64,000 bases of DNA, taken from the NCBI GenBank assembly GCA_937136425.1, contig CAKZON010000068.1, positions 235,511 through 299,510 of the forward strand, written 5' to 3'. The notes under the pieces were generated by a model that saw only the letters and a list, made by a program, of their open reading frames with translations, was not told where the DNA came from and did not search any database. Made by a program: the position numbers and the translations under genes. Positions 29,555 through 52,241 of the stretch are shown piece after piece. Every line of letters starts with the position of its first letter. Position 1 is the stretch's first letter. The stretch is from an uncultured Crocinitomix sp. Lineage in GTDB: Bacteria; Bacteroidota; Bacteroidia; Flavobacteriales_D; Crocinitomicaceae.

Positions 29555-30262
29555 CTAACGTTGCGCGAATCCTATTTTTAATCCTGCAATTGGGGTTGGA
29601 TAAAATAAACTCATATCATCATGCAATGACCAAATGTCTCCATTATCTGGAAAATCAACCCCATCTGGCATTTCAGAATTATTTATAACATTCAATGATC
29701 GAAGACTCAGACCTACATAAAAATCGAAAACATAACCTTTAGGTTTTATCCTTTGAAAACCGTACTTCAAATCTAAATTTATGTTTATCCGATTGGCACG
29801 AACGGGCACTCTTTGAAAATAAACAAAATTTGTTCCTCCCCATTCATTAGCGAAGGGCTCCATCCCTATTGCAAACTCATCTTTTACAACAAGGTGTCTA
29901 AACAACGCCCCTACAGCTAAATATCGATTCGTTTTTACGGGCATGTAACGACGTAACTCTCCTCTCAATTTATAACCATTCATGCTATTGTATCCAACAA
30001 AAATGCGATTCGTCATAAATTGAGAAAAATTTGGAATTACACCAATACCTGCCTGAACTGCATACGTTTTATTTACTCTTACTTCCACATCTGTTCCAAA
30101 CGTAGATAATATTGAAATGAAATCGAACGGGCTAAACTTCCAATATATAGGCGCTTCCTTAAATGACCACTCGTCATTATGGTTTACAGTAACGGTATCA
30201 ACTGACTGTCCTTGTGCAACAAAAAAGCAAAAAACAATAAGTGTACTGAGTAAATATCGCAT
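29555..30262 (-). CDS. Outer-membrane-type hypothetical protein (cassette copy A)
   Basis: Signal peptide; paralogous along its length to 32096..32830. Confidence 0.75.
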   Translation of the reverse strand: MRYLLSTLIVFCFFVAQGQSVDTVTVNHNDEWSFKEAPIYWKFSPFDFISILSTFGTDVEVRVNKTYAVQAGIGVIPNFSQFMTNRIFVGYNSMNGYKLRGELRRYMPVKTNRYLAVGALFRHLVVKDEFAIGMEPFANEWGGTNFVYFQRVPVRANRININLDLKYGFQRIKPKGYVFDFYVGLSLRSLNVINNSEMPDGVDFPDNGDIWSLHDDMSLFYPTPIAGLKIGFAQR

Positions 30263-30280
30263 GGTTAAGGTTTATGGGTT

Positions 30281-30319
30281 AATTCAAGAGGAGATACGAT
30301 TCGCACCTCCTCTTGAATT
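30281..30319. other. Intergenic hairpin, copy A
   Basis: AATTCAAGAGGAG-13 nt-CTCCTCTTGAATT, perfect 13-bp stem. Confidence 0.75.
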
Positions 30320-31585
30320 TTATTATTGTACGCTAATGAATGATTTTTGAACCAATTCAAGCGGGTTAGATGAATCATATTGATACACTCCTTGACGCGT
30401 TAGAACCACTAATAAGTTCTCTGCTGCCGGAATAACATCAATCGCTTCTATATCTTCTTTATGCATAACCATTTCAACATTTTCTAAATCTGAAATGTCA
30501 TACACTTTTAATCCTGCATATCCATCACATATATAAACCAAGTTTTCGTTTTCGGCAACAAAACCAACACCATATGGGTTAATCAAATCTTCTGAAAGCA
30601 TTAACATTGGATGATCTAAGTCTGAAATATCTATAATGTCCAATCGATTCAAACTACCGTTACATGGTGTACCGCCTCTTAATGTAGCAACCGCATAATG
30701 ATCATTTGCCACAACAGGATCACAACTTGTTACGTGATCAATTTCTGAAACAGCCTCTGGACTTCTTGGATTCGTTACATCATAAATTCGAACACCATTT
30801 TGTGTTCCAATAAATAAATGATCGTTTTGTGGGTAAATTGTCTCAATTCCCACTCCAAGGTTAATATTCTCCAATAATTCAGGATTTGTAGGATCTGAAA
30901 TATGGAATACTTTTAGTGATTTATAATCTACCGTATAAAGGTAGTTATCAATTATAGTGAATTGTGCCATTGATCCGCCTAGTCCGTTTGTAACCTGATT
31001 CTTTGTCTCAACGTTTTTGTCTGGACTGTCGTTCTTTTCGCAACTCATAACCGCAGCACTGCAAAGCGCCGCAAACATATATATTTTTAAATTTTTCATT
31101 TGTCTAATTTTTTATTTTCAACTGTGTTTAAAATTTGATTGATTTTAATTACAGTATTATTTGAAACATTTAGGATCAGTCAATTGTGTTTTTTCCCATC
31201 CTACAACCAAACCTTTAGATGGATCTACGCATTCAAACGCTCCAAACTCATCTGGAAATTGTTGTACCGGAAATACACTTTGAATTCTATTTTTATATAC
31301 TGGAGCCGCTGGGTCCGAAATATCTATAATGATCATATCCGTAACATTGTCTGCATAAAGCATATTATTACTTACAGAAAAATCCATATTGCCAGGAATA
31401 GCAATAAAAGAAACTTCAACTGGGCTACTTGCATTGCTATTATCGTAAATGTGAATTCCTTTGGCTTGATCATTTACCAAGAGGTAATTTTCGTATAAAT
31501 ATATTCGCCCTGGGTTTTCCAACGCTTCGCTAGATTTTACATCAATACTCTCCAAATCTTGCGTAGTCGCATAAATTGGTTTGTA
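30306..31585 (-). repeat. Near-identical direct repeat, copy A (partner 32886..34165, offset 2580 bp)
   Basis: Alignment by eye shows one noticed mismatch (30368 A vs 32948 G); identity stops at 31586. Confidence 0.93.
30323..31099 (-). CDS. LVIVD-repeat lipoprotein, copy A
   Basis: MKNLKIYMFAALCSAAVMSCEKND; repeated VKVFHISDPTNPELLENI / VRIYDVTNPRSPEAVSEI / LDIIDISDLDHPMLM; identical to 32903..33679. Confidence 0.85.
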   Translation of the reverse strand: MKNLKIYMFAALCSAAVMSCEKNDSPDKNVETKNQVTNGLGGSMAQFTIIDNYLYTVDYKSLKVFHISDPTNPELLENINLGVGIETIYPQNDHLFIGTQNGVRIYDVTNPRSPEAVSEIDHVTSCDPVVANDHYAVATLRGGTPCNGSLNRLDIIDISDLDHPMLMLSEDLINPYGVGFVAENENLVYICDGYAGLKVYDISDLENVEMVMHKEDIEAIDVIPAAENLLVVLTRQGVYQYDSSNPLELVQKSFISVQ

Positions 31586-31678
31586 TCCATCTACCACTTC
31601 TCCTGCCTTATTTTTTCCGCAAGAAACTGCAAGCAATACGGAAAAAGCCAAAGCAGTAGTTTTAATTACTGTCTTCAT
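31157..31678 (-). CDS. LVIVD-repeat-related lipoprotein, copy A
   Basis: AVSCGKNK lipobox; IHIYDNSNASSPVEVSF, MIIIDISDPAAPVYKN. Confidence 0.82.
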   Translation of the reverse strand: MKTVIKTTALAFSVLLAVSCGKNKAGEVVDGYKPIYATTQDLESIDVKSSEALENPGRIYLYENYLLVNDQAKGIHIYDNSNASSPVEVSFIAIPGNMDFSVSNNMLYADNVTDMIIIDISDPAAPVYKNRIQSVFPVQQFPDEFGAFECVDPSKGLVVGWEKTQLTDPKCFK

Positions 31679-32095
31679 AATCTTATAATTTATAGGTTAA
31701 AAAATATCACGTGATCTCGTTACTATACAACGGGGAATTATTTATTTAAGTATCTAAATATCAATTAATTTTAAAAAAATAAATTCATGTTTAAACACAT
31801 TAATGCTATCAACATCATTGGTCGCACTAATTAAGACCAATAATGCTCAATAAACTATATTTATTGAGGTAGGCTTAGAAATAGCAACCAATAAAACAAC
31901 TGTTTTTTAGCCAATGAAATCATGATTTCATCAGGAGAAAAGCAGCTTAATAATTCGTGATTTTTTTATGTTGAACAAGCAAAAAAAGACATTAAATCTA
32001 CTACAAAAAGTAGTTTGAATAGATTCAATTCTGTTTTGGGGTACGTTTATTCTCACTCATCAAAATAACATCTATCTAAATGAAATGAGGTCACG

Positions 32096-32830
32096 TTATT
32101 TTTTCTTTTGAGCAAAACCTATTTTGAATCCAACAATTGGAGTTGGGTAGGTTAAATTATAGTTTTGAGTTAAAGTCCAAACTCCTCGTTGATTTGGAAA
32201 ATCTCCACCTGCAGGAATTTCAGAATTACTTCGAACTTGCACCGCTCTTATACTTAATCCAGTATAAAAGTCTAAAACTAAGCCACCCTTTTTAATCTTC
32301 TGAAATCCAAATTTTAAATCCAAATTTGTATTAATTCGATTAAAGAGCATTGGTGTATCTTGAAAATAAGCAAAGTCTGTACCTCCCCATTGGTTAGTAA
32401 ATGGTTCCATACCAATTGCTACTTCATCTTTAATAATAATATGTCTTACAGACATGCCCACAGCCAAATATCGATTCGTTTTTACGGGCATATAAATACG
32501 TCCTTCTCCTCTAATTTTGTAACCTCCCATTCTATCATAGCCACCTAATTCTTCGTTGGCCATAAATTGAAAGAAAGTTGGTATTGCACCTACGCCTACT
32601 TGAAAAGCAAACCTTTCATTTACATTTACTTCTACATCTGTTCCAAAAGTGGGTACAGCAGAAAAAATATCCAATGGGCTAAATTTCCAATATTTTTGAG
32701 CAGATTTTAAAGTCCATGGAACTGGAACTTCTTCAACCTTTGCCGTTGAATCTGTTACGACTGCATCAGTCGTTTGCGCATTTACTGCACAAAGGCAAAA
32801 AACAAAAAGTGTACTGAGTAAATATCGCAT
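32096..32830 (-). CDS. Outer-membrane-type hypothetical protein (cassette copy B)
   Basis: Diverged paralogue of 29555..30262 (e.g. YMPVKTNRYLAVG, AIGMEPF.N.WGGT.F.YFQ shared). Confidence 0.75.
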   Translation of the reverse strand: MRYLLSTLFVFCLCAVNAQTTDAVVTDSTAKVEEVPVPWTLKSAQKYWKFSPLDIFSAVPTFGTDVEVNVNERFAFQVGVGAIPTFFQFMANEELGGYDRMGGYKIRGEGRIYMPVKTNRYLAVGMSVRHIIIKDEVAIGMEPFTNQWGGTDFAYFQDTPMLFNRINTNLDLKFGFQKIKKGGLVLDFYTGLSIRAVQVRSNSEIPAGGDFPNQRGVWTLTQNYNLTYPTPIVGFKIGFAQKKK

Positions 32831-32855
32831 GGCTAAGGTTTTATAAGGTTAAACA

Positions 32856-32894
32856 AAGAGGAGACACACATTATTGTGGTCTGCGCCTCCTCTT
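32856..32894. other. Intergenic hairpin, copy B
   Basis: AAGAGGAG...CTCCTCTT at the same relative position as copy A. Confidence 0.6.
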
Positions 32895-34165
32895 GAATTT
32901 TATTATTGTACGCTAATGAATGATTTTTGAACCAATTCAAGCGGGTTGGATGAATCATATTGATACACTCCTTGACGCGTTAGAACCACTAATAAGTTCT
33001 CTGCTGCCGGAATAACATCAATCGCTTCTATATCTTCTTTATGCATAACCATTTCAACATTTTCTAAATCTGAAATGTCATACACTTTTAATCCTGCATA
33101 TCCATCACATATATAAACCAAGTTTTCGTTTTCGGCAACAAAACCAACACCATATGGGTTAATCAAATCTTCTGAAAGCATTAACATTGGATGATCTAAG
33201 TCTGAAATATCTATAATGTCCAATCGATTCAAACTACCGTTACATGGTGTACCGCCTCTTAATGTAGCAACCGCATAATGATCATTTGCCACAACAGGAT
33301 CACAACTTGTTACGTGATCAATTTCTGAAACAGCCTCTGGACTTCTTGGATTCGTTACATCATAAATTCGAACACCATTTTGTGTTCCAATAAATAAATG
33401 ATCGTTTTGTGGGTAAATTGTCTCAATTCCCACTCCAAGGTTAATATTCTCCAATAATTCAGGATTTGTAGGATCTGAAATATGGAATACTTTTAGTGAT
33501 TTATAATCTACCGTATAAAGGTAGTTATCAATTATAGTGAATTGTGCCATTGATCCGCCTAGTCCGTTTGTAACCTGATTCTTTGTCTCAACGTTTTTGT
33601 CTGGACTGTCGTTCTTTTCGCAACTCATAACCGCAGCACTGCAAAGCGCCGCAAACATATATATTTTTAAATTTTTCATTTGTCTAATTTTTTATTTTCA
33701 ACTGTGTTTAAAATTTGATTGATTTTAATTACAGTATTATTTGAAACATTTAGGATCAGTCAATTGTGTTTTTTCCCATCCTACAACCAAACCTTTAGAT
33801 GGATCTACGCATTCAAACGCTCCAAACTCATCTGGAAATTGTTGTACCGGAAATACACTTTGAATTCTATTTTTATATACTGGAGCCGCTGGGTCCGAAA
33901 TATCTATAATGATCATATCCGTAACATTGTCTGCATAAAGCATATTATTACTTACAGAAAAATCCATATTGCCAGGAATAGCAATAAAAGAAACTTCAAC
34001 TGGGCTACTTGCATTGCTATTATCGTAAATGTGAATTCCTTTGGCTTGATCATTTACCAAGAGGTAATTTTCGTATAAATATATTCGCCCTGGGTTTTCC
34101 AACGCTTCGCTAGATTTTACATCAATACTCTCCAAATCTTGCGTAGTCGCATAAATTGGTTTGTA
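32886..34165 (-). repeat. Near-identical direct repeat, copy B (partner 30306..31585)
   Basis: See copy A. Confidence 0.93.
32903..33679 (-). CDS. LVIVD-repeat lipoprotein, copy B
   Basis: Protein identical to 30323..31099. Confidence 0.85.
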   Translation of the reverse strand: MKNLKIYMFAALCSAAVMSCEKNDSPDKNVETKNQVTNGLGGSMAQFTIIDNYLYTVDYKSLKVFHISDPTNPELLENINLGVGIETIYPQNDHLFIGTQNGVRIYDVTNPRSPEAVSEIDHVTSCDPVVANDHYAVATLRGGTPCNGSLNRLDIIDISDLDHPMLMLSEDLINPYGVGFVAENENLVYICDGYAGLKVYDISDLENVEMVMHKEDIEAIDVIPAAENLLVVLTRQGVYQYDSSNPLELVQKSFISVQ

Positions 34166-34258
34166 CCCATCAACGACTTCAGCTTCCTTGTTTTTTCCAC
34201 AAGAAACTGCAAGCAAAACGGAAAAAGCCAACGCTGTAGTTTTAATTGCTGTTTTCAT
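33737..34258 (-). CDS. LVIVD-repeat-related lipoprotein, copy B
   Basis: Identical to 31157..31678 except in the signal/lipobox region. Confidence 0.82.
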   Translation of the reverse strand: MKTAIKTTALAFSVLLAVSCGKNKEAEVVDGYKPIYATTQDLESIDVKSSEALENPGRIYLYENYLLVNDQAKGIHIYDNSNASSPVEVSFIAIPGNMDFSVSNNMLYADNVTDMIIIDISDPAAPVYKNRIQSVFPVQQFPDEFGAFECVDPSKGLVVGWEKTQLTDPKCFK

Positions 34259-39490: not shown

Positions 39491-40207
39491 TTATTCTGAT
39501 TTCTTCTCAGAATTTATTGCATAACGCAAACCTGCCCCTAAATAAGTGCTCCAATTAAAGGTTGATGCTGGTACCCCAATATATTCCGTTAACGGATCAA
39601 TAATATTTGTTGCCCCCATATAGATTGGTACACCAAAATTACTTGCAATTGAGAAATTAAGAATAAATCCTTTTCCTAAAGGAGCATCCATATTTAGGCT
39701 TAATCGAGCCGTTGGTGTAAAAAAATGTCTGGTTATTTGAGCGCTTAAAATTTCTTCATTTCCCTGAAAAAATGGAGAAACCCCATTTTCTTCCCATACT
39801 CCATTTTCATTCAATGCCCAATTTCTATTGGCCCGCTCAGATTGGAAGTTTTGATATCCTAAATTCAAATCAAAACCAATTGAAAAAATAGAAATTCCAA
39901 GGTTTCTTTCTAATCCAATGCGCAAATTAGTGGTAGAAATTTGGTTGGAAAAGTGGCGCGTACTAAAAGTTGAATCTGAAAATTCATACAATTCATAGCT
40001 AGGTGACAAAACAACACCAGAGCTGCCTTGAGTTACTCCTATTTTATATCGCAAGTGCTCATTAATTGGTTTGCGAAACTCAATACCATACCGAAAATCT
40101 TCGTTAGATGTAAATACAATTCCTAAATCTCCATCTTCTTGAGCAAATGAAAAACAATTGACTCCAACAAACATTAGCAATAAAGCAAGTTTTTTTAATT
40201 CTGGCAT
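39491..40207 (-). CDS. Outer-membrane-type protein, paralogue 1 of 3
   Basis: DLGIVFTSNEDFRYGIEFRKPINEHLRYKIGVTQG...VPIYMGATNI. Confidence 0.75.
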   Translation of the reverse strand: MPELKKLALLLMFVGVNCFSFAQEDGDLGIVFTSNEDFRYGIEFRKPINEHLRYKIGVTQGSSGVVLSPSYELYEFSDSTFSTRHFSNQISTTNLRIGLERNLGISIFSIGFDLNLGYQNFQSERANRNWALNENGVWEENGVSPFFQGNEEILSAQITRHFFTPTARLSLNMDAPLGKGFILNFSIASNFGVPIYMGATNIIDPLTEYIGVPASTFNWSTYLGAGLRYAINSEKKSE

Positions 40208-40266
40208 ATCTTATCTTCTTATCGTATTACAAGGATACGTTAAGAAATTAGGATAGGTTGCGCTAA

Positions 40267-41031
40267 TTAATTTGAAGGAGCTTTCACCTTGTTTTTAAAG
40301 GTTCCTATGATATACCTCAATCCAACTGCAGCTGTTGTACCTATATCAAAGTTTAAAGGCGGCGAACCAACAGTAATTCTATTGTGATTTGTTACTTCTG
40401 TTGCGCCCATATAAATTGGAACTCCAAAACGTGTAAGTATGGAACAATTAAAATAAAACGCATCTGAAATAGGCACATTCAAATTAAAGGTAATACGCAT
40501 ACTTGGCACAAAAAAATGCTGTTTTATATTGGCATAATCGGGATCACCAACTGCTAAAGTATTATTAGGTGCATTAGGCGGAATTTGCGAAGCATCAGCA
40601 ACAAAATAACCGCTGTTCCAATTCCCGTTTTCATCCAATATTAACGGTGTATTAAATTGTCTTTTTTCATGTCGTAAATATCCTAAATTCAAATCTGCAC
40701 CAAGAGAAAACATGGACTCTCCTAATTTTCTTTCTCCACCAATTCTTAATTCCCATTGATTATTACTGCGAAAAACGGTTTGCTGTACCACTACTGTATC
40801 TGATGCTGAAATAATGCCAGAAGAAATCCAACTGTTTTGAAATGTACCATGTGTAATACCAAATTTATATGTTAGCTGGTCATTTTTAGGATGGCGATAT
40901 TCTAACCCATATCTCGATTCATCATTCAGTGAAAGAATGAATCCCAAATCAGCTTTTTCCTGCCCAAGCAGTTCACCAAAAGGTGAAATGAGCAATATGA
41001 TTAAGGTGGTAAATCTTATTGGCTGGATCAT
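40267..41031 (-). CDS. Outer-membrane-type protein, paralogue 2 of 3
   Basis: DLGFILSLNDESRYGLEYRHPKNDQLTYKFGITHG...VPIYMGATEV; start set at MIQPIRF. Confidence 0.75.
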   Translation of the reverse strand: MIQPIRFTTLIILLISPFGELLGQEKADLGFILSLNDESRYGLEYRHPKNDQLTYKFGITHGTFQNSWISSGIISASDTVVVQQTVFRSNNQWELRIGGERKLGESMFSLGADLNLGYLRHEKRQFNTPLILDENGNWNSGYFVADASQIPPNAPNNTLAVGDPDYANIKQHFFVPSMRITFNLNVPISDAFYFNCSILTRFGVPIYMGATEVTNHNRITVGSPPLNFDIGTTAAVGLRYIIGTFKNKVKAPSN

Positions 41032-41041
41032 GGTTATTAGA

Positions 41042-41755
41042 TTAGTTACGGCTTCCGAAAATATAGCGTATGCCAATTCCAACATTTGTGTCAAGATTAA
41101 TCCAAGACGGAGGCGTACCTCCAAAATGACCCGTTGGATCGTGAACTTGACTTGCTCCCATATAAACTGGTAAATTGAGAGTTCCTGCTGCTGCTAAATT
41201 CAATAAAAAGGATTTTCCAACTGGAATGTTCATGTTAAAACTTAATCTGGCTCCTGGCACTAAAAAGTGACGGGTAATTCTGGCGTCTGAAGGATCAGAA
41301 AATGCTGGAAAAATAGTGGTGATTGGTCCATTTTCCCACACTCCGTTTTCTTGCAAATAAAGCGTGTTATTTTGGAAGGATGAACTCGTCTGTTTATAAT
41401 CAACACTTATGTCTGCTGCAACAGAAAACATTGAATTCCCAAATTGTCGTTCGGCACCAAGGCGCAAACCTGTTTGAAATCCATCATAATAAAAAAATCG
41501 TTCTGTAATTGATGAATCTGTCACGGTAATAATTTCACCTCTGCGATTGCCCCAAAATAGATTTCCGTGTTCACCATATGAAGCTCCAATTCTAAGCTTG
41601 TATTTTTCTGCAATTGGTTTTCTGTATTCTATTCCTATTCTTGATTGGTGTGAAGTTGTGATTAAAATTCCTAAATCTCCTTTGTCTTGCGCGTTAACTG
41701 GAGCAAGAAATAAGAAACCAATAAAGGTTATGGTAAATTTTTTTAAAGCGATCAT
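41042..41755 (-). CDS. Outer-membrane-type protein, paralogue 3 of 3
   Basis: DLGILITTSHQSRIGIEYRKPIAEKYKLRIGASYG...LPVYMGASQV. Confidence 0.75.
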   Translation of the reverse strand: MIALKKFTITFIGFLFLAPVNAQDKGDLGILITTSHQSRIGIEYRKPIAEKYKLRIGASYGEHGNLFWGNRRGEIITVTDSSITERFFYYDGFQTGLRLGAERQFGNSMFSVAADISVDYKQTSSSFQNNTLYLQENGVWENGPITTIFPAFSDPSDARITRHFLVPGARLSFNMNIPVGKSFLLNLAAAGTLNLPVYMGASQVHDPTGHFGGTPPSWINLDTNVGIGIRYIFGSRN

Positions 41756-41950: not shown

Positions 41951-43846
41951 TTATTGATAAATAGTTTTCGCTGCATCAACCAATCTTAAAAACTCGGCAC
42001 GGTAACCATTTTTATCGTCTCCTTTTCCTTCTTTTGCCAATTTTAAAATCGCATCAAAGTTTAAGGTTCCTTTATACTCAGACTCTCTTAATAACATTCC
42101 GAAACCTGCTACTGCTGCAGAAAATTTATAATTATCAGACAGCTTGCTCCAATCCGTAACTTTGTTTTTAAGATTACGCTCAATCAACTTACTTACATCA
42201 CCATCTGGCGCTTTATATCTGAATTTCACAGTTAGCAATTCATTGCCATATTTACGACTTTCTGTAGGATTGTTTTCTTGATAACGCAGTGGATCAACAG
42301 AAGGGCTTGTACCATCTCCTTCTCCTTTCATCACCACTTCATACAAAGCCGTAACAGAATGACCGGCGCCAATTTCTCCTGCATCTTTTTTGTCATCATT
42401 AAAATCCTCTTCATTTAACAATCGGTTTTCATAACCTACTAATCGATATGACTCAACTAAAGTTGGGTTAAATTCAACCTGAATTTTAACGTCTTTAGCC
42501 AAGGTAATAAGCGTTGCACCAATTTCAGTAACCAATACTTTTTTTGCTTCTAAAAGGTTGTCGATATACGCATAGTTCCCATTACCTTTATCCGCCAATG
42601 TTTCCATTTTTGAATCTTTAATATTACCCGTTCCAAATCCTAAACAAGTTAAAAACACACCTGTTTTACGCTTCTCTTCAATCAAATCTTTCATTGATGC
42701 GTCTGAACTCATCCCAATATTAAAGTCACCATCTGTTGCTAGAATTACTCGATTGTTTCCTCCTTTAATAAAGTTGTCAGTTGCAACTTGATAAGCCAAT
42801 TTAATTCCTGCACCACCAGCCGTTGAACCACCAGCATTTAATTTTTCTAATGCACTTAAAATCTCCGTACTATTGTCTGCAGTTGTTGAATTTAAAACTA
42901 CCCCTGCAGCACCTGCGTAAACAACAATTGCAATGCGGTCACGATCTCCCAATTCATTTACTAATAATTTGAATGATTTTTTTAAAAGTGGCAACTTGTT
43001 AGGTTGATCCATTGACCCCGAAACATCCAATAAAAAAACCAAATTGCTCGCAGGTAAATTTTCTTTCTCAATACGCTCACCTTGCAAACCAATGTGCACT
43101 AACTTATTATTACTCCATGGGCAATCGCCAATTTCTGTTGTAATTGAAAACGGATTTCCATCTGTTGGATCAGGATAGTCATAATGGAAATAATTAATCA
43201 ATTCTTCTACACGAACAGCTCCTTTATCTGGCTTTTGACCATTCAATAAAAAACGGCGCACGTTAGAGTACGAAGCGGCATCAACATCAACCGAAAATGT
43301 AGAAAGAGGATTTACATTTGTTAATTTAAAGCCATTTTCCTCAATCGAATTATACGATTCTGTATTATGATAAACGGGCTCAGAATAATAACCAGCTCCT
43401 ATTCCACTCATCATAGAACGAGCCGACTTATTGTAAAGTCTATTTTCATAGGCAGGAGCAATTTCTTCTTCATTATCCAACTCAATAATCTCTACCTCAG
43501 GAATTGTATTCACGAGCGTAGGGTTTATTGTTTTGGTTTGTCCAATAGTTAATTTCACACCACTTTTTCTATACTTTTTATAGTTTACTTTGTCCACCTT
43601 AAAATAATAAGAACCCGTTGGAATATCTTTAAATTCATAATAGCCTTTTGAGTTGGTTTTAGTAGAACGATTAACATTTGTTTTCTCGTCTTTAATCGTT
43701 ACTTGGGCATCTGCTATCACAGTTCCAAAATCATCCTTTACAATTCCTTTTAAGCTAATGCTAGTTGTTTGAGAAAACCCCGTTGCGGCAAAAATTAGCA
43801 AGGCGAATATAAGGTTGAGTTTTATAGAAAAATTTGTGCGAATCAT
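41951..43846 (-). CDS. von Willebrand factor A domain protein (YfbK-like, DUF3520) with carboxypeptidase-like N-terminal domain
   Basis: LVFLLDVSGSMDQPNKLPLLKKSFKLLVNEL (MIDAS DxSGS); N-terminal GIVKDDFGTVIADAQVTIKDE. Confidence 0.9.
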   Translation of the reverse strand: MIRTNFSIKLNLIFALLIFAATGFSQTTSISLKGIVKDDFGTVIADAQVTIKDEKTNVNRSTKTNSKGYYEFKDIPTGSYYFKVDKVNYKKYRKSGVKLTIGQTKTINPTLVNTIPEVEIIELDNEEEIAPAYENRLYNKSARSMMSGIGAGYYSEPVYHNTESYNSIEENGFKLTNVNPLSTFSVDVDAASYSNVRRFLLNGQKPDKGAVRVEELINYFHYDYPDPTDGNPFSITTEIGDCPWSNNKLVHIGLQGERIEKENLPASNLVFLLDVSGSMDQPNKLPLLKKSFKLLVNELGDRDRIAIVVYAGAAGVVLNSTTADNSTEILSALEKLNAGGSTAGGAGIKLAYQVATDNFIKGGNNRVILATDGDFNIGMSSDASMKDLIEEKRKTGVFLTCLGFGTGNIKDSKMETLADKGNGNYAYIDNLLEAKKVLVTEIGATLITLAKDVKIQVEFNPTLVESYRLVGYENRLLNEEDFNDDKKDAGEIGAGHSVTALYEVVMKGEGDGTSPSVDPLRYQENNPTESRKYGNELLTVKFRYKAPDGDVSKLIERNLKNKVTDWSKLSDNYKFSAAVAGFGMLLRESEYKGTLNFDAILKLAKEGKGDDKNGYRAEFLRLVDAAKTIYQ

Positions 43847-44022: not shown

Positions 44023-46974
44023 TTATTCTTGACTAACTTTAATAGGAAGCGTAACTTGGATATTAAAAACCTGTCCCCCAACTTCACCTGGAGTCCAATT
44101 TGGCATTAATGATACTACCCTAAGAACTTCCTGATCCATTCGCTTACTAACACCTCTTCTAATCTCAGGATTCCTAACATTACCATTAATATCTACAATA
44201 AACTTTACATAAACTGTCCCTTCCAATTCCTCGTTTGTTAGTTCATCTGGAAAACGAATTTGAGAATTAATAAATCTATACATTTCAGCTGTTCCTCCAA
44301 CAAAATTTGGCTGTAAATCGGCTTCTAGTGAATAAAATCTTATATCAGCCTCCTCATCTATCACCTCAATTTCTTCAACAGTTCCTGAGCACTTACAAGG
44401 AAAGACATATGGCCGTGCTTTATTTCGCAAGTTGCGTTTTGCACTAGTTGTATTTCTTCGATCCTGATCCTTTTTTGCGTATTCTATAAAATCAATTTCA
44501 TCAGCCATGTTATTAATATGACCTAAACTTTCCTTAATTTTGGTTTTCCACTCAACCTCATTAACTGGCAATAATTCTAAAAGCGTTTCACCAGGTTTAC
44601 CTGCTATCTGTGAGTAGAACATTCCCTTGTCATTCCAAGCAATTGCAATAACTGAATAAGCTAGTTTATCATTCAACTGATAATCGAAATTATTTTGCTT
44701 GGATTTTAACTTCACATAAGAATTAAAACGCGTTGGCACAACATATACATTTAAGCGATTAAAGCTCGTCGCATCATTCACTTTAATTGACATTTTTGAA
44801 TAATTAATACTTGCATTTTTACCATTATAGCCCCTAATTTTTGCGTCCTCTCTTTGAGTACTTACAGACATTAAACAATCTACATTTTTCCAACCTGTAC
44901 TATTAATGTTTGCGCGTAAAAAAGAGCGGTTTGGACGAATAGGTGTTGTTGGTATTTCAATACTTGGTGCATCAATAGTCTGAATAAAACTACTCTTAAA
45001 AGTAACAGGACGCGTGCTACGTGGAACAGGTTTTTGCAATCCCAACTGCGCATAAACATCATTCGTATTAAATTCAAGCTCTTTTTTATCTAACGCGCGT
45101 TTACTCTTCTTATCCCGATTAACCGTTCTTTGTTCTTCTCTTGTATATTCTTCGTCCAAACGATTTTGTTCTTCCCAATAATTAGAATTTGTTTTGGCTA
45201 TTGCAGTTTGCAAGGCTTGCTTTTTAAGTGCGTAATAGTCGTTTAATTTTTGTTGGGCAACGGTACTTATTTCCACCTGACCATGACCTTTTGCAGCAAA
45301 GTTGGCAAAAACTCGGCGATTACTGCCTCCAAGCATTCTCATTGCCATTGAATCAACAGTACAAAGGTTTTTATCTAAATTATTGATGTATAATTCTAAA
45401 ATGGCATTGTTACACGTTTTATGGATGTGCGGCATGCGCTCTTCAAATTCTTTAGTTGCCAAATTGGTATTGTTGAATTTGCTATTCCAAATGGTTTTAA
45501 CTGATGCTGGATTAACACCGCATTCGGTGCAAGGGTCATCTAATAAATCATCTGAAGCAGCCAAACTATCAACAGCTTCAATTCCATTAAGCATAAAATC
45601 GGTATCCTGGGGTAGCGGCATAAACATGTGAAAAGTGCTCACGGTAGAAACTTGCGCATCTACATTTTTCAATGTTGTTTGGTTAGCGTTTACGTTTACT
45701 TGCGGGTCATTAACAGATTCAATATAAGTGTAAATCCAATCTATTTCACGATTTGTTAGATTACTACTCGGCATTCCTAAATTATTCCAGTCTTTGAATA
45801 ATTTATTTGCATAAGTATCACCACTAGCGATTACCGCACCACTATTCTTGATAAAGGCATAAAAGTTCTCTTCACTTGAGTTTTTTATCCAGCGTTCTTT
45901 TGAACCTTTCAATGCAGGCCCTGTCATATCTCTATTTACAAAATGACAAGAGGCACAAGTCATATTAAAAATTCTTTCTCCAATCCCTATTTCATCATCA
46001 GAATGCCACTCATTATCGTTAATAGCTTGTTCAGACGAATTATTTCCTTCACATTCATCAGCAAAAGAATAATATAAACTGTCTTTAAATTGTTTATTCA
46101 AATAGCCCCACTCTTCCATTTTAGGTTCATATCCTCTTGGATAAAAATCCAATTCTGTAATTTCTACAGGAATTAACGGTTTTGTAATTGGCTTTGGGTT
46201 AGTCCATAACAGTTCACCATTTTTATTTTCAACTCCATCATATAATTGCATTCCTGTTTTATCCATATTTGCAGGAATATCAACCGTTAACTCTTTTTTG
46301 AGTGGAATACGCTCCCCATTTTCAAAAGCATCAAAATAAAACATACCACCCGTTTCCAATTCTTCGCCTTCTGCTGTCATTGTATTCAAGCCTGCATATA
46401 AAATATCTGCTGGTGTTAAAGCCTCCTGAATTAAAAAATCAACTTGACTATTTTCTGTTTCAAAGGCATTTGCTGGTATATAAACAACAATTCCTTCTTC
46501 AGACTCAATCACTGTATCACGATCTGTGTTTATTTGAAAAAGTTCTTGATCTAAAAACGCATTAGCGTCTGAACTTAATGTATCGTTTTCATCAATTAAG
46601 ATGGGTTGAAAGTCTTCAATAATTACTTCTCCTCTAGTTTCACCTGAACTATTATTATTTCCAAAAAAATTAAAGCCTCCTTCAGTATTTGCAGCATAAT
46701 AATAAAATGCACCTGCCAATAAACCAATAACTGCAATTATAATTCCGGTTGTTTTTAAAAAACGTTGTGTGCGGTATTTTTTTCGCGAATTTACGGCATC
46801 TTTCTTCAACCCTAATCGCTGAATTCCTTCTACTAAATTTTGCTGAAATTCTACTTCCAATTTTAACCCTTGATCTGCAGTGATTTTTGCTTCAAATGCC
46901 GCTTTATCTGTTCCACTCAATTTATTCATGAGGTAGTTTTCAATTTGTTCTATTAATTCCAATTCTTTTCTCAT
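44023..46974 (-). CDS. Membrane protein: anti-sigma-like N-terminus, TM helix, c-type heme domain, TonB C-terminal domain
   Basis: N-term LIEQIENYLMNKLSGTDKAAFEAKITADQGLKLEVEFQ; TM TTGIIIAVIGLLAGAFYYYAA; CASCH at 45943-45957 with downstream NNLGMPSSNLT; C-term FPDELTNEELEGTVYVKFIVDINGNVRNPEIRRG. Confidence 0.8.
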   Translation of the reverse strand: MRKELELIEQIENYLMNKLSGTDKAAFEAKITADQGLKLEVEFQQNLVEGIQRLGLKKDAVNSRKKYRTQRFLKTTGIIIAVIGLLAGAFYYYAANTEGGFNFFGNNNSSGETRGEVIIEDFQPILIDENDTLSSDANAFLDQELFQINTDRDTVIESEEGIVVYIPANAFETENSQVDFLIQEALTPADILYAGLNTMTAEGEELETGGMFYFDAFENGERIPLKKELTVDIPANMDKTGMQLYDGVENKNGELLWTNPKPITKPLIPVEITELDFYPRGYEPKMEEWGYLNKQFKDSLYYSFADECEGNNSSEQAINDNEWHSDDEIGIGERIFNMTCASCHFVNRDMTGPALKGSKERWIKNSSEENFYAFIKNSGAVIASGDTYANKLFKDWNNLGMPSSNLTNREIDWIYTYIESVNDPQVNVNANQTTLKNVDAQVSTVSTFHMFMPLPQDTDFMLNGIEAVDSLAASDDLLDDPCTECGVNPASVKTIWNSKFNNTNLATKEFEERMPHIHKTCNNAILELYINNLDKNLCTVDSMAMRMLGGSNRRVFANFAAKGHGQVEISTVAQQKLNDYYALKKQALQTAIAKTNSNYWEEQNRLDEEYTREEQRTVNRDKKSKRALDKKELEFNTNDVYAQLGLQKPVPRSTRPVTFKSSFIQTIDAPSIEIPTTPIRPNRSFLRANINSTGWKNVDCLMSVSTQREDAKIRGYNGKNASINYSKMSIKVNDATSFNRLNVYVVPTRFNSYVKLKSKQNNFDYQLNDKLAYSVIAIAWNDKGMFYSQIAGKPGETLLELLPVNEVEWKTKIKESLGHINNMADEIDFIEYAKKDQDRRNTTSAKRNLRNKARPYVFPCKCSGTVEEIEVIDEEADIRFYSLEADLQPNFVGGTAEMYRFINSQIRFPDELTNEELEGTVYVKFIVDINGNVRNPEIRRGVSKRMDQEVLRVVSLMPNWTPGEVGGQVFNIQVTLPIKVSQE

Positions 46975-46976
46975 GG

Positions 46977-47552
46977 CTAGTTGTTTTTAAGGTTAGATTC
47001 TTTTGCAAGTGCCCGTGCATGTTCCATGCATTTATACTTTTTAGTCTTGGCAGATTGCACTGTTTTGTATCCAAACTTTTTGGCTATTTTATCCATGGAA
47101 AAGTTCTTGTAATAGAACGCCTCCAGCATGTTTTTACATTTTTGTCCGAGTTTAGTTAATACTTGATCTATCGTTTTAAATTTTGCTTCTTTTTCAATCA
47201 ATAACTCAATTTCATCCTGATGTTCTTCTGTAAATTGAGTAGATGCTACTTCAGTCAATTCATCCTCACCTGAATTTTTTCTTACTTTCTTTTTACGCAG
47301 TTCATTACTCCATAAAAGTTTGCAGGTATTAATTAAAAAACCATCTACCTTAACAGGAGAATCAACCGGCAAATCTTGCACTTTTTTATAAAGAATAATA
47401 AGACCATCCTGAAAAATATCAAGTGCCTCCTCTTTTGATCCAGAGTTGATCAAAATATGTTTTTCTACCTTGGGAAAGTATTTATACAAACGTGTAAAGG
47501 CACGCTCTTGATCGCCGCCTTGCAATTGTATAATGATTTTTGTGTTATTCAT
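46977..47552 (-). CDS. ECF-type RNA polymerase sigma factor
   Basis: EALDIFQDGLIILYKKVQ...KTIDQVLTKLGQKCKNMLEAFYYKNFSMDKIAKKFGYKTVQSAKTKKYKCMEHAR. Confidence 0.88.
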   Translation of the reverse strand: MNNTKIIIQLQGGDQERAFTRLYKYFPKVEKHILINSGSKEEALDIFQDGLIILYKKVQDLPVDSPVKVDGFLINTCKLLWSNELRKKKVRKNSGEDELTEVASTQFTEEHQDEIELLIEKEAKFKTIDQVLTKLGQKCKNMLEAFYYKNFSMDKIAKKFGYKTVQSAKTKKYKCMEHARALAKESNLKNN

Positions 47553-47684
47553 TTTCGTTTCTTTCCCTAAGATGTAGCAAAGTTGAAAAGGTAACTTATT
47601 TTGGTTAAAAATATGTTTTATTCTCTGTTCTCATCTTCTATTTAAATAAAACCCACTAATTTAGAGAGCAACCAAAACACCTGT

Positions 47685-49493: not shown

Positions 49494-52241
49494 TTATTTT
49501 GCACCCAATTTTTGAAAAGAAAACTTAAGCCCCACCATAAAATAACGTGCTAATGTGGCTGTACGTTGCTGCTCATAATAATTCAAGAAATAAGACTGGT
49601 TGATTCCTGTGTTTTGGTTTAATAAATCATAAACCGCCACGTATGCTTGCAACTTTTTCGATTTTAAGAAATTTCTTGCAATAGATGCATTCACAATTAC
49701 CTGCTCGTTATTCGTTTCAAAAGATGGATAAAAATAATGTTTAGCATCTGCCTTAAACACCCACTTATCTTTTATTTTTAGTGTCAAATCACCTGAATAA
49801 TTCCAGCTAAAAAAATCACTGTTTAACGCCGCGTTTTCAGGATAAGCGCTTTTAGAATAAGTCATTTCAACACCTGCTTTTATATTTACTACTTTCTTTT
49901 TGGTGTTTTCAATAATAAGCCTAGAATTATTATAGAGCGACGTATAGGAATTGGGCGCCCCATTCAACCTTAATTGCCCTTTAGAAACTGTTGCATTATT
50001 AGTAATACTAAACTTAGTTTTAATTGGGCTCAAATTTGTTCCAAAAGAAGTGTATGCATTTAATTGGTCTTCTTTCCCATTGTTTTCTGGTGTAAAGAGG
50101 CGATTAAAATTCTCATCAATTTCTTGAGAATAGTTGATTTTATTTTCTACTCTAGTAGCACCAACACGCACCATTAAATTGGTAAAATTGAATTCATTAA
50201 ACAGGTTGTATTCAAGAAATAAATCGTGCTTGTATTCTGGAACCAAGCTTAAGTTCCCAACCACAATTTCTGCCGGGTTAGTATTGTCAGGAATTGATTG
50301 CAACTGTGTAATTTGTGGGGCTTGCACATTGGTTCTATAATCCAATCTAAATTCAGATGATTTATTGACTTCCCATTGCAATCTAAAATATGGCAACGCG
50401 TAGTTATAAGAACGATTTTCATCAAATAAATCTGCACTCAATAAGTTTAAATTAGAATACCTTAAACCAGTAGTTGTCTTGAATTTTTTTGAAAGATATT
50501 TATGTCGCAATTCTCCATTATTTTCAATGTTTGCATAATTTGCTTCTCCGGAAAATAGTGGATTAAAAATCAATTCATCTGGCGTTATTTCATCACTCAC
50601 ATTTTTATCTCTGAAGAAATTTTTTCTGTTATGCTGCACCTCTGCCTGCAATAAATGTTTTTTAGCAATAGGTTCTGAATACATCCAATTGGTAGAAATG
50701 TTTGCATTATTTTGAAAGTTATCCTGGTTTTGAATTGCTTGAGAAATAACAGGACCTGGCAAATAAAGAATATTTTGATATGTCAAATCAGTTACCCCTG
50801 TTCTATTGCTTACTCCGTATGCTGCGCCCCCACCAGTATATCGTCCTTTTTTTGCAAATTTTTTCCGATAATCAACAGCTAAATTTAAATTATAGTCAAA
50901 TCTATTTTGATCTAAATTGGTGGTATAGGTATTCTTCAAAATTTGCTTACTATCAAAACTCATCAAGTTATTTATGTTATTATACTTGGCATTGGTCCAA
51001 TTTCCGCTTAAATCAACATTTAAAAAATGCGTCGAGTCAAATTCTTGTTTATAATGGATTGTTCCGCGGTTATTTAATGTAGCACTGTTTTGTATTATTG
51101 ACTCTTGCGAAAACACACTTGAATCCTGAAAAAACGTAGTTCTATCAAGTGATCGATCAAATGACTTATCGAAAGTGTTAAAGAAAAAACTAGAAGAAAC
51201 AGTTGCCTTTTTAGAGGGTTTATAGTTTAAATTAAGTCCTGTTGCGTTGGTACTTAAAAAACCTGTGTTTTGCCCATTGCTAATTGGCAGTCCACCATCT
51301 CCTCCAATATTAATAGTTCCAGATCCGTCCATTAAATTTTGGATTCCTCCCATAAAAGAAATGTAATCGCTAATAGAAAAACCTGTTTCATTCACATTAT
51401 TAGAAAGCCCAATTCCCGAAATCTGCCATTTTCCTTTGAAATAGTGCACATTCCCTTTCAATTTATAACGGTTTTGGTCAGAAATGCCTTCTGCATCAGG
51501 ATTTAAACCAGCGCCATATGCCGCTTCCAAGTTTCCAAAATATCCTCTCTTTCTATCTTCTTTGAGTTTCAAATTTATCGTCGTTGATTCATTTCCATCA
51601 TCCACACCTGTAAATTCAGCCATGTCTGAGGCTTTGTCAAACACCTGCACGCGATCAACCGCATCTGCCGGTAAATTTTTAGTTGCAATGGTAGGATCAC
51701 TGCCAAAAAACTCCTCCCCATCTACCAGTATTTTTTCAACGGTTTTCCCTTGCACTTTGATACTTCCATCAGGTTGCACCTCTACTCCAGGCAATTGTTC
51801 TAATAAGTTTTCAACCACATCATGCTCTCCAGTTTCAAATGCCCGCGAATCGTATTCAATGGTATCTCCTTTGATCCTAATTGGAATGTAATCGCTAGAA
51901 ACGGTTACTACATCCAACATAATTGGGCGAAGTTCAACTACTCCTATAACTGTGTCTGATGAGGCTGCATTGGTCGTAAATTCCAATTCATAAGGTTGAT
52001 TTCCGTATGAATTAGCTTTAAACAAATATGCATTTGGCTTTACATTCTTCAAAACAAAGTTTCCTTCATTATCAGAAACTGCAAAGGTTTTAAGAATAGA
52101 ATCTTGCTGACCAATAAGCATAACAGTTGCCCCTGGAATTGGGCTATCTGTTGAATCGGTTACTTTACCAAAAACCTTTATTGATTGTGCATTAACACCC
52201 CAACCTAACAGGAATAGCATTATGAATAGTATAAATCTCAT
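49494..52241 (-). CDS. TonB-dependent-receptor-like outer membrane protein with carboxypeptidase-like domain
   Basis: KVFGKVTDSTDSPIPGATVMLIG; plug VVENLLEQLPGVEVQPDGSIKVQGKTVEKILVDGEEFFG; beta-barrel C-terminus. Confidence 0.9.
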   Translation of the reverse strand: MRFILFIMLFLLGWGVNAQSIKVFGKVTDSTDSPIPGATVMLIGQQDSILKTFAVSDNEGNFVLKNVKPNAYLFKANSYGNQPYELEFTTNAASSDTVIGVVELRPIMLDVVTVSSDYIPIRIKGDTIEYDSRAFETGEHDVVENLLEQLPGVEVQPDGSIKVQGKTVEKILVDGEEFFGSDPTIATKNLPADAVDRVQVFDKASDMAEFTGVDDGNESTTINLKLKEDRKRGYFGNLEAAYGAGLNPDAEGISDQNRYKLKGNVHYFKGKWQISGIGLSNNVNETGFSISDYISFMGGIQNLMDGSGTINIGGDGGLPISNGQNTGFLSTNATGLNLNYKPSKKATVSSSFFFNTFDKSFDRSLDRTTFFQDSSVFSQESIIQNSATLNNRGTIHYKQEFDSTHFLNVDLSGNWTNAKYNNINNLMSFDSKQILKNTYTTNLDQNRFDYNLNLAVDYRKKFAKKGRYTGGGAAYGVSNRTGVTDLTYQNILYLPGPVISQAIQNQDNFQNNANISTNWMYSEPIAKKHLLQAEVQHNRKNFFRDKNVSDEITPDELIFNPLFSGEANYANIENNGELRHKYLSKKFKTTTGLRYSNLNLLSADLFDENRSYNYALPYFRLQWEVNKSSEFRLDYRTNVQAPQITQLQSIPDNTNPAEIVVGNLSLVPEYKHDLFLEYNLFNEFNFTNLMVRVGATRVENKINYSQEIDENFNRLFTPENNGKEDQLNAYTSFGTNLSPIKTKFSITNNATVSKGQLRLNGAPNSYTSLYNNSRLIIENTKKKVVNIKAGVEMTYSKSAYPENAALNSDFFSWNYSGDLTLKIKDKWVFKADAKHYFYPSFETNNEQVIVNASIARNFLKSKKLQAYVAVYDLLNQNTGINQSYFLNYYEQQRTATLARYFMVGLKFSFQKLGAK

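Follow-up and report, generated by a model that had tools for sequence, protein, structure and literature searches.

In a 64,000-nucleotide stretch of DNA from an uncultured Crocinitomix sp. (GenBank assembly GCA_937136425.1, contig CAKZON010000068.1, positions 235,511 to 299,510; hereafter the window) a gene for an extracytoplasmic function (ECF) sigma factor is followed on the minus strand by ORF983, which codes for a membrane regulator of 983 amino acids (aa). Gene order, domain content and comparison with relatives suggest, with a probability of about 0.6, that the two products form an ECF sigma/membrane anti-sigma pair in which a heme-c module captured from ActA acts as a proxy for an electron carrier and controls release of the sigma factor. 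The family to which ORF983 belongs keeps its predicted sigma-binding end, while the presumed sensing end has been exchanged repeatedly, in many cases for redox domains copied from the cell itself. The parts of the pair are the following:

47572-47595, minus: promoter-like element GTTACC-N13-TACAT upstream of the sigma gene (aligned upstream regions)
46977-47552, minus: ECF sigma-70 family sigma factor, 191 aa (TIGR02937 sigma70-ECF match)
44023-46974, minus: ORF983, 983-aa membrane regulator directly 3' of the sigma gene
46753-46974, minus: residues 1-74, very likely a class I anti-sigma domain, without zinc ligands (AlphaFold2 model, Foldseek, NF052375, sigma linkage)
46693-46752, minus: residues about 75-94, predicted single transmembrane (TM) helix (hydropathy and charge bias in family members)
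46060-46560, minus: residues 139-305, predicted periplasmic Y domain, no Pfam family (family hidden Markov model (HMM) built here)
45706-45999, minus: residues 326-423, hinge with a monoheme cytochrome c module of ActA type (PF00034; 60% identity to the ActA domain of the same genome)
45943-45957, minus: residues 340-344, CASCH heme attachment motif (sequence)
45763-45780, minus: residues 399-404, LGMPSS with the probable axial ligand Met401 (aligned with the ActA Met)
44395-45516, minus: residues 487-860, predicted periplasmic core H, ending at the invariant Cys860 (alignments, family HMM, AlphaFold2 secondary structure)
44026-44322, minus: residues 885-983, TonB C-terminal domain (CTD) (PF03544; Foldseek)

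The sigma factor and the anti-sigma end of ORF983

The sigma ORF matched the sigma70-ECF model TIGR02937 with 55.3 bits (cut-off 42.9) and scored slightly below the cut-off of Sigma70_r2. Its stop codon is separated from the ATG of ORF983 by 2 bp. A first-pass annotation of this DNA had already reported the two ORFs in immediate succession; their coordinates were verified, as were the positions of the motifs that it named.

The same annotation had likened the N-terminus of ORF983 to anti-sigma regulators, and this was upheld by fold, by family matches and by gene linkage. An AlphaFold2 model of residues 1-95 with nine natural homologues had a mean confidence score (pLDDT) of 82.6, and its helices run into the TM helix. 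When the N-domain model was compared with 350,542 PDB chains by Foldseek, the top seven matches were all anti-sigma domains, either of RskA (4nqw, RskA/SigK) or of RslA (3hug, RslA/SigL), and RsiW and ChrR were also found among the 27 matches. The NCBIfam model NF052375 ('anti-sigma factor') recognized seven of nine homologous N-termini (best E-value 5.9e-7).

Gene linkage is the strongest test of anti-sigma identity. A sigma gene lies immediately upstream, on the same strand, in 54 of the 56 distinct homologues that carry the N-domain; of the remaining two, one begins 153 bp away from the end of its contig. No sigma gene was found upstream of the five lipoprotein-type homologues lacking the N-domain. 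A search of three genomes with the N-domain only returned nine matches, all of them with a sigma gene directly upstream, although in six of them, all paralogues, the C-terminal part was unrelated (TonB_C, TPR-like, trypsin-like protease domain and others). The N-terminus of ORF983 is thus very likely an anti-sigma domain, judged by sequence and structure comparison and gene linkage, and is predicted to inhibit the sigma factor. Residues 1-74 contain neither Cys nor His and lack the His/Cys zinc site of the ZAS (zinc) subgroup, to which ORF983 is not assigned.

Eight Lys or Arg residues precede the TM helix and none follows it. By the positive-inside rule, this charge bias predicts that the N-terminus is cytoplasmic and the remainder periplasmic. 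Hydropathy and charge bias agree with the single TM helix proposed in the first-pass annotation, in a predicted N-in/C-out orientation. ORF983 thus shows the N-terminal fold, the co-encoded ECF sigma gene and the predicted one-TM topology by which class I anti-sigma domain (ASDI) proteins are recognized.

Other genes with this N-domain were seen. A second sigma/anti-sigma pair, in which the anti-sigma protein (355 aa) consists of N-domain, TM helix and TonB_C only, was found at L053 (9200-10827, contig C68 of the window's genome) and L261, and a similar pair occurs in genome G007 (L263). At L266 (contig C44 of the window's genome) a sigma gene immediately precedes a gene in which the N-domain is fused to an apparent serine protease domain of the trypsin/HtrA-like type. 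At L264 (contig C24 of the window's genome) and L265 (G007) a sigma gene is followed by an N-domain protein whose C-terminal part is TPR-like, and a CHAT-like protein is encoded alongside.

In the aligned upstream regions of the sigma gene the element GTTACCTTTTC..TACAT (GTTACC-N13-TACAT) was conserved and its flanks had diverged. An exact match was located close upstream of the pair in all eight genomes compared. In the window's genome (6.09 Mb) the only exact match is the one preceding the sigma gene, and sites with one mismatch were near the control level. The element is probably an autoregulated ECF promoter read by the co-encoded sigma factor, as its conservation and position suggest. One-mismatch sites were noted in three species (G000:C114:43658-43681, G005:C36:5285 and G001:C137:11003) before a gene for a 1742-aa TPR protein followed by ApbE. 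This operon may belong to the regulon of the ORF983-linked sigma factor or to that of a paralogous one, and the site provided no respiratory link. A like promoter was also seen before genes for a lipoprotein containing a Y-domain-like region and for a WG-repeat protein (G001:C31:48259, G002:C241:1163, G027:C5:221472).

Domains of the periplasmic part and origin of the hinge modules

Residues 332-421 matched Pfam Cytochrom_C (PF00034) with 32.1 bits (cut-off 21.3), and the domain has the CxxCH and distal Met typical of class I cytochromes c (CASCH at 340-344, Met401). Its nearest solved structure was ActA of alternative complex III (6btm_A, E-value 8e-8). Compared with the closest orthologue, the ratio of nonsynonymous to synonymous substitutions (dN/dS) in the cytochrome region was 0.30 at a dS of 0.26, indicating purifying selection. 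These data bear out the heme-c domain that had been proposed from CASCH and LGMPSS, and which is predicted to carry covalently attached heme. Two further Cys motifs listed in the first-pass annotation, CTECG (482-486) and CKCSG (860-864), were rejected as redox or cytochrome motifs: C482 and C485 are located within a variable linker, C860 being a single invariant Cys of the core.

A profile search was made with a core alignment of six rows, and domains were mapped at about 70 loci with HMMs built from orthologues. The family was present in 51 of 344 genomes of the order and in 4 of 396 genomes sampled across the phylum, the window's own included; records of Crocinitomix sp. and of C. catalasitica ATCC 23190 (Flavobacteriales) are among those containing it. 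Common to the family are the N-domain, the TM helix, the Y domain (139-305) and the H core (487-860). The Y domain is conserved (dN/dS 0.06). According to the AlphaFold2 secondary structure, H is composed of a helical part, a long coiled coil and a beta domain. A full-length model was too weak to assign folds to Y and H (mean pLDDT 60.7), with clear PDB matches coming from the TonB CTD only.

The hinge between Y and H is the variable part. It holds a cytochrome c, a DsbD N-terminal domain, both in tandem, TonB_C, other inserts, or nothing. On a core tree calculated from the Y and H domains of 61 homologues by a quick method, the state of the hinge changed at least 22 times and presence of the cytochrome at least 9 times; at one locus (L043) the cytochrome is inserted within H instead of in the hinge. 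The cytochrome is therefore one of several interchangeable hinge modules and not a fixed part of the family. Conservation of the heme motif among orthologues, which the first-pass annotation had proposed as a check, was accordingly found in one sense only: none of the 17 full cytochrome modules has lost CxxCH, but many orthologues, including that of C. catalasitica, lack the module. The axial Met is kept in 11 of these modules and is replaced by His, Lys, Gln or an unclear residue in the other six. Pfam DsbD_N (PF11412) was detected in six of eight isolated DsbD modules (best E-value 2.2e-6), and both redox cysteines are kept in seven of the eight recognized DsbD_N modules; the exception is the tandem DsbD_N and cytochrome hinge of L102 (6692-9472, genome G509). 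Lipoprotein-type members consisting of Y and H without the anti-sigma domain were observed at L048, L096, L098, L136 and L139, those at L096 and L136 having a cytochrome c domain at the C-terminus.

The best relatives of the cytochrome modules outside the family were N-terminal domains of multiheme proteins of about 450-470 aa, whose genes are followed by genes of ActB and ActC size. The multiheme part and the adjoining genes identify the source protein as ActA. According to PMC8552683, the heme domain at the N-terminus of ActA is globular and mobile and ferries electrons toward cytochrome aa3. In the cytochrome domain tree the anti-sigma modules nested within the diversity of ActA and formed no single clade. 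One clade was rejected by the approximately unbiased (AU) test (p 8.6e-53 in one analysis and 3e-86 in another), and with it a single ancient gain followed by vertical descent. Well-supported pairing of a module with the ActA of its own genome was seen in G455, G036, G027 and G509 and, less strongly, in G482, and in 7 of 13 cases the own-genome ActA came first by identity. DsbD modules behaved likewise (AU p 9e-63), own-genome DsbD being 74% identical against 58% for the next best in G739, and 53% against 34% in G016. Trees and identities thus support repeated capture of modules from ActA or DsbD, combined with vertical inheritance within some genera. For the window's genome, a recent gene conversion from ActA was considered and found unsupported, the protein identity being only 60%.

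The TonB-like C-terminus noted in the first pass proved to be a genuine TonB CTD. Residues 905-978 scored 40.5 bits against Pfam TonB_C (PF03544; cut-off 24.6), and the TonB-CTD structures 5lw8, 6i97, 2gsk and 2grx were among the top Foldseek matches. Within the family TonB_C is optional and swappable, and most members lack it. The orthologue in G005 is 83% identical overall and only 44% identical in TonB_C, where dS rises to 1.28 from about 0.3, so that replacement of this segment is more probable than simple divergence. In G001 a type IX secretion system (T9SS) type B/CHU_C-like domain stands in its place. In E. coli TonB, the His of the TM helix couples the protein to ExbB/ExbD. No such His was found in the TM helix of any TonB_C-bearing member, which disfavours use of ORF983 as an energy transducer in spite of its CTD fold and would favour a docking role. 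At five loci (L114, L119, L120, L123, L124) TonB_C occupies the hinge between Y and H and not the C-terminus.

Proposed mechanism and alternatives

In the mechanism that we favour, cytoplasmic residues 1-74 would bind and retain the partner sigma factor, and this factor probably acts on its own promoter. The TM helix would link this end to a periplasmic part of about 890 residues, in which the Y/H core is combined with a plug-in module in the hinge and, optionally, with a docking domain at the C-terminus. In ORF983 the hinge module would be a copy of the mobile heme-c arm of ActA, by which electrons pass from alternative complex III toward cytochrome aa3. The trigger could be the redox state of its heme, its docking to the partners of ActA or its failed maturation, and would alter the conformation or the protease sensitivity of the periplasmic part, upon which the sigma factor would be released. 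The hinge module would set the signal: a cytochrome would report the flow of electrons at ActA-type cytochromes or the maturation of these, and a DsbD_N domain the disulfide-reducing pathway, which also serves cytochrome maturation. ORF983 itself would sense respiratory redox state or cytochrome maturation. Its TonB CTD would anchor the far end to a partner in the outer membrane or elsewhere in the envelope and is probably not energised, since the TM helix lacks the TonB-type His. More tentatively, the hinge may be regarded as an 'integrated bait', in which copies of the cell's own redox-relay domains (ActA cytochrome, DsbD_N), captured time and again by flavobacterial anti-sigma factors, report the fate of the real carriers; over-reduction, failed heme attachment, loss of a partner or attack would then be reported to the sigma factor.

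Several observations weigh against this mechanism. Members without any module retain the sigma pair, so a redox module is dispensable for the basic switch, and with the Met ligand lost in six modules a common redox potential is unlikely. The promoter element occurs in exact form once in the genome, and the regulon therefore gives no clue to a respiratory role. The module in the window is 60% identical to the ActA of its own genome and 61% to others, its donor being indistinguishable among related ActAs. At the N-terminal end, the Foldseek E-values of the small domain were weak (1.3 and worse), and the HMM search suggested in the first-pass annotation succeeded with homologues only, the N-terminus of ORF983 alone matching no anti-sigma model in Pfam or NCBIfam. 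This last result is what could be cited for a sigma gene that neighbours an unrelated domain by chance; the fold matches, NF052375 in the homologues and the adjacency of sigma genes in 54 of 56 and 9 of 9 cases make such a coincidence barely credible and strongly disfavoured.

It is unlikely, though not negligibly so, that the hinge is a neutral cassette whose cytochrome, DsbD and TonB modules are kept for spacing or stability without sensing anything. The very frequent turnover of modules and the existence of module-less members would fit a spacer, as would the DsbD_N of L102, which has lost both cysteines, and a DsbD-like insert without Cys at L121. Against it stand CxxCH in 17 of 17 cytochrome modules, both Cys in seven of eight recognized DsbD_N modules, purifying selection on the cytochrome module and the repeated choice of redox domains of ActA and DsbD instead of random periplasmic proteins. 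Loss of the axial Met in 6 of 17 modules (to His, Lys, Gln or an unclear residue) would also suit a heme c that releases the sigma factor on binding NO, CO or O2 and not in response to electron flow, and heme-c Cache domains derived from cytochromes and fused to signalling modules do act as NO sensors (PMC12889525). However, the module in the window and ten others retain the Met expected of a six-coordinate electron-transfer heme, and DsbD_N, which occupies the same site, binds no gas; we consider a gas or ligand sensor decidedly improbable. An equally low likelihood is given to cell-surface signalling of the FecR type, in which the TonB CTD and an outer-membrane receptor would provide the signal and the cytochrome would report heme or iron supply. 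A genuine TonB CTD is indeed present at the C-terminus of ORF983 and other members and follows the anti-sigma domain in the paralogue at L053, and TonB-dependent transducers act on anti-sigma factors (PMC11637429). But near the pair no receptor bearing a signalling domain was found, most members lack TonB_C and even close species have exchanged it, and the TM helix has no His. The close similarity of the module to the mobile domain of ActA could finally mean that it works as a respiratory carrier, a second ActA arm, whose synthesis the sigma pair merely co-regulates. This is very improbable, as the module lies in a regulator, flanked on either side by a conserved non-redox domain, does not occur in close orthologues and has often lost its Met ligand in the family.

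The repeated exchange of the outer part for redox domains among the relatives points to a sensor of plug-in type for electron flow in the envelope, as proposed above for ORF983. If the modules sense, respiratory electron flow or the maturation of cytochromes and disulfides would be tied to transcription in a new way, and the family would offer a natural series of modular sensors open to comparison in laboratory strains. The bait version, if true, would mean that sensing works by mimicry of the cell's resident machines and that the thing sensed can be exchanged by plug-in. A prediction of the proposal is that the cytochrome module meets the partners of ActA.

Comparison with known systems and neighbouring genes

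Class I ECF anti-sigma factors such as RskA, RslA, RsiW, ChrR and RseA share with ORF983 an N-terminal helical cytoplasmic domain, a single TM helix and a co-encoded ECF sigma factor. ORF983 differs from them by the absence of a zinc site and by the very large size of its periplasmic part, in which redox modules are swappable. In a survey of more than 10,000 ECF/ASDI pairs the fused domains were strikingly conserved within groups, only 6% of the Bacteroidetes ECFs had an ASDI partner, and cytochrome and TonB were not mentioned (PMC7406223). The recurrent capture of modules in the family of ORF983 is an unusual pattern.

The nearest envelope-spanning anti-sigma factors are the Dma (dual membrane-spanning anti-sigma) proteins, which are specific to Bacteroidota, are encoded beside ECF21 sigma factors and extend with their domains from the cytosol to the outer membrane (PMC13088901). 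Dma proteins themselves reach into the outer membrane, whereas ORF983 has a soluble TonB CTD and a heme domain upstream of it. Assignment of ORF983 to Dma was rejected: its last 99 residues have the fold of a TonB CTD, and a barrel domain was not detected.

In FecR/FpvR-type systems the anti-sigma factor may likewise contact TonB or a receptor. Such systems rely on the signalling domain of an outer-membrane receptor; in ORF983, unlike in these systems, the TonB CTD belongs to the anti-sigma factor itself. Membership was not supported, as ORF983 had no FecR match in Pfam and a nearby OMP_b-brl_3 protein (49494-52241) had no signalling-domain match.

The N-terminal domain of ActA belongs to the same domain family as the anti-sigma cytochrome modules, but ActA continues into a multiheme electron wire, whereas the domain of ORF983 sits inside a sigma-linked regulator. 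The Geobacter heme-c sensors GSU0582 and GSU0935 use covalent heme c in a periplasmic signalling protein (PMC3460858), as is predicted for ORF983, and heme Cache domains are a further case of recruitment of a cytochrome-derived domain into signalling (PMC12889525). These known heme-c sensors have a PAS/Cache fold that bears a heme motif, and chemoreceptor or other outputs, whereas in ORF983 a whole class I cytochrome domain is part of an anti-sigma factor. In the open-access literature no description was found of a heme-c sensor within an anti-sigma factor, of an anti-sigma factor of the ORF983 kind or, in agreement with the first-pass annotation, of one combining covalent heme with a TonB domain.

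One gene downstream of the pair deserves mention:

41951-43846, minus: YfbK-like VWA protein with a CarboxypepD_reg domain (Pfam)

The VWA gene adjoins the sigma/anti-sigma pair in four Crocinitomix genomes (neighbours in L034, L035 and L037), and its product is possibly an accessory of the pair. Just downstream of it, at 39491-41755 of the window, three similar genes follow one another and code for secreted proteins (237-285 aa) of a single family. Further away, at 29555-34258, a block of three genes is duplicated in tandem with a start-to-start distance of 2.55-2.58 kb, one 300-nt stretch being 99% identical between the copies.

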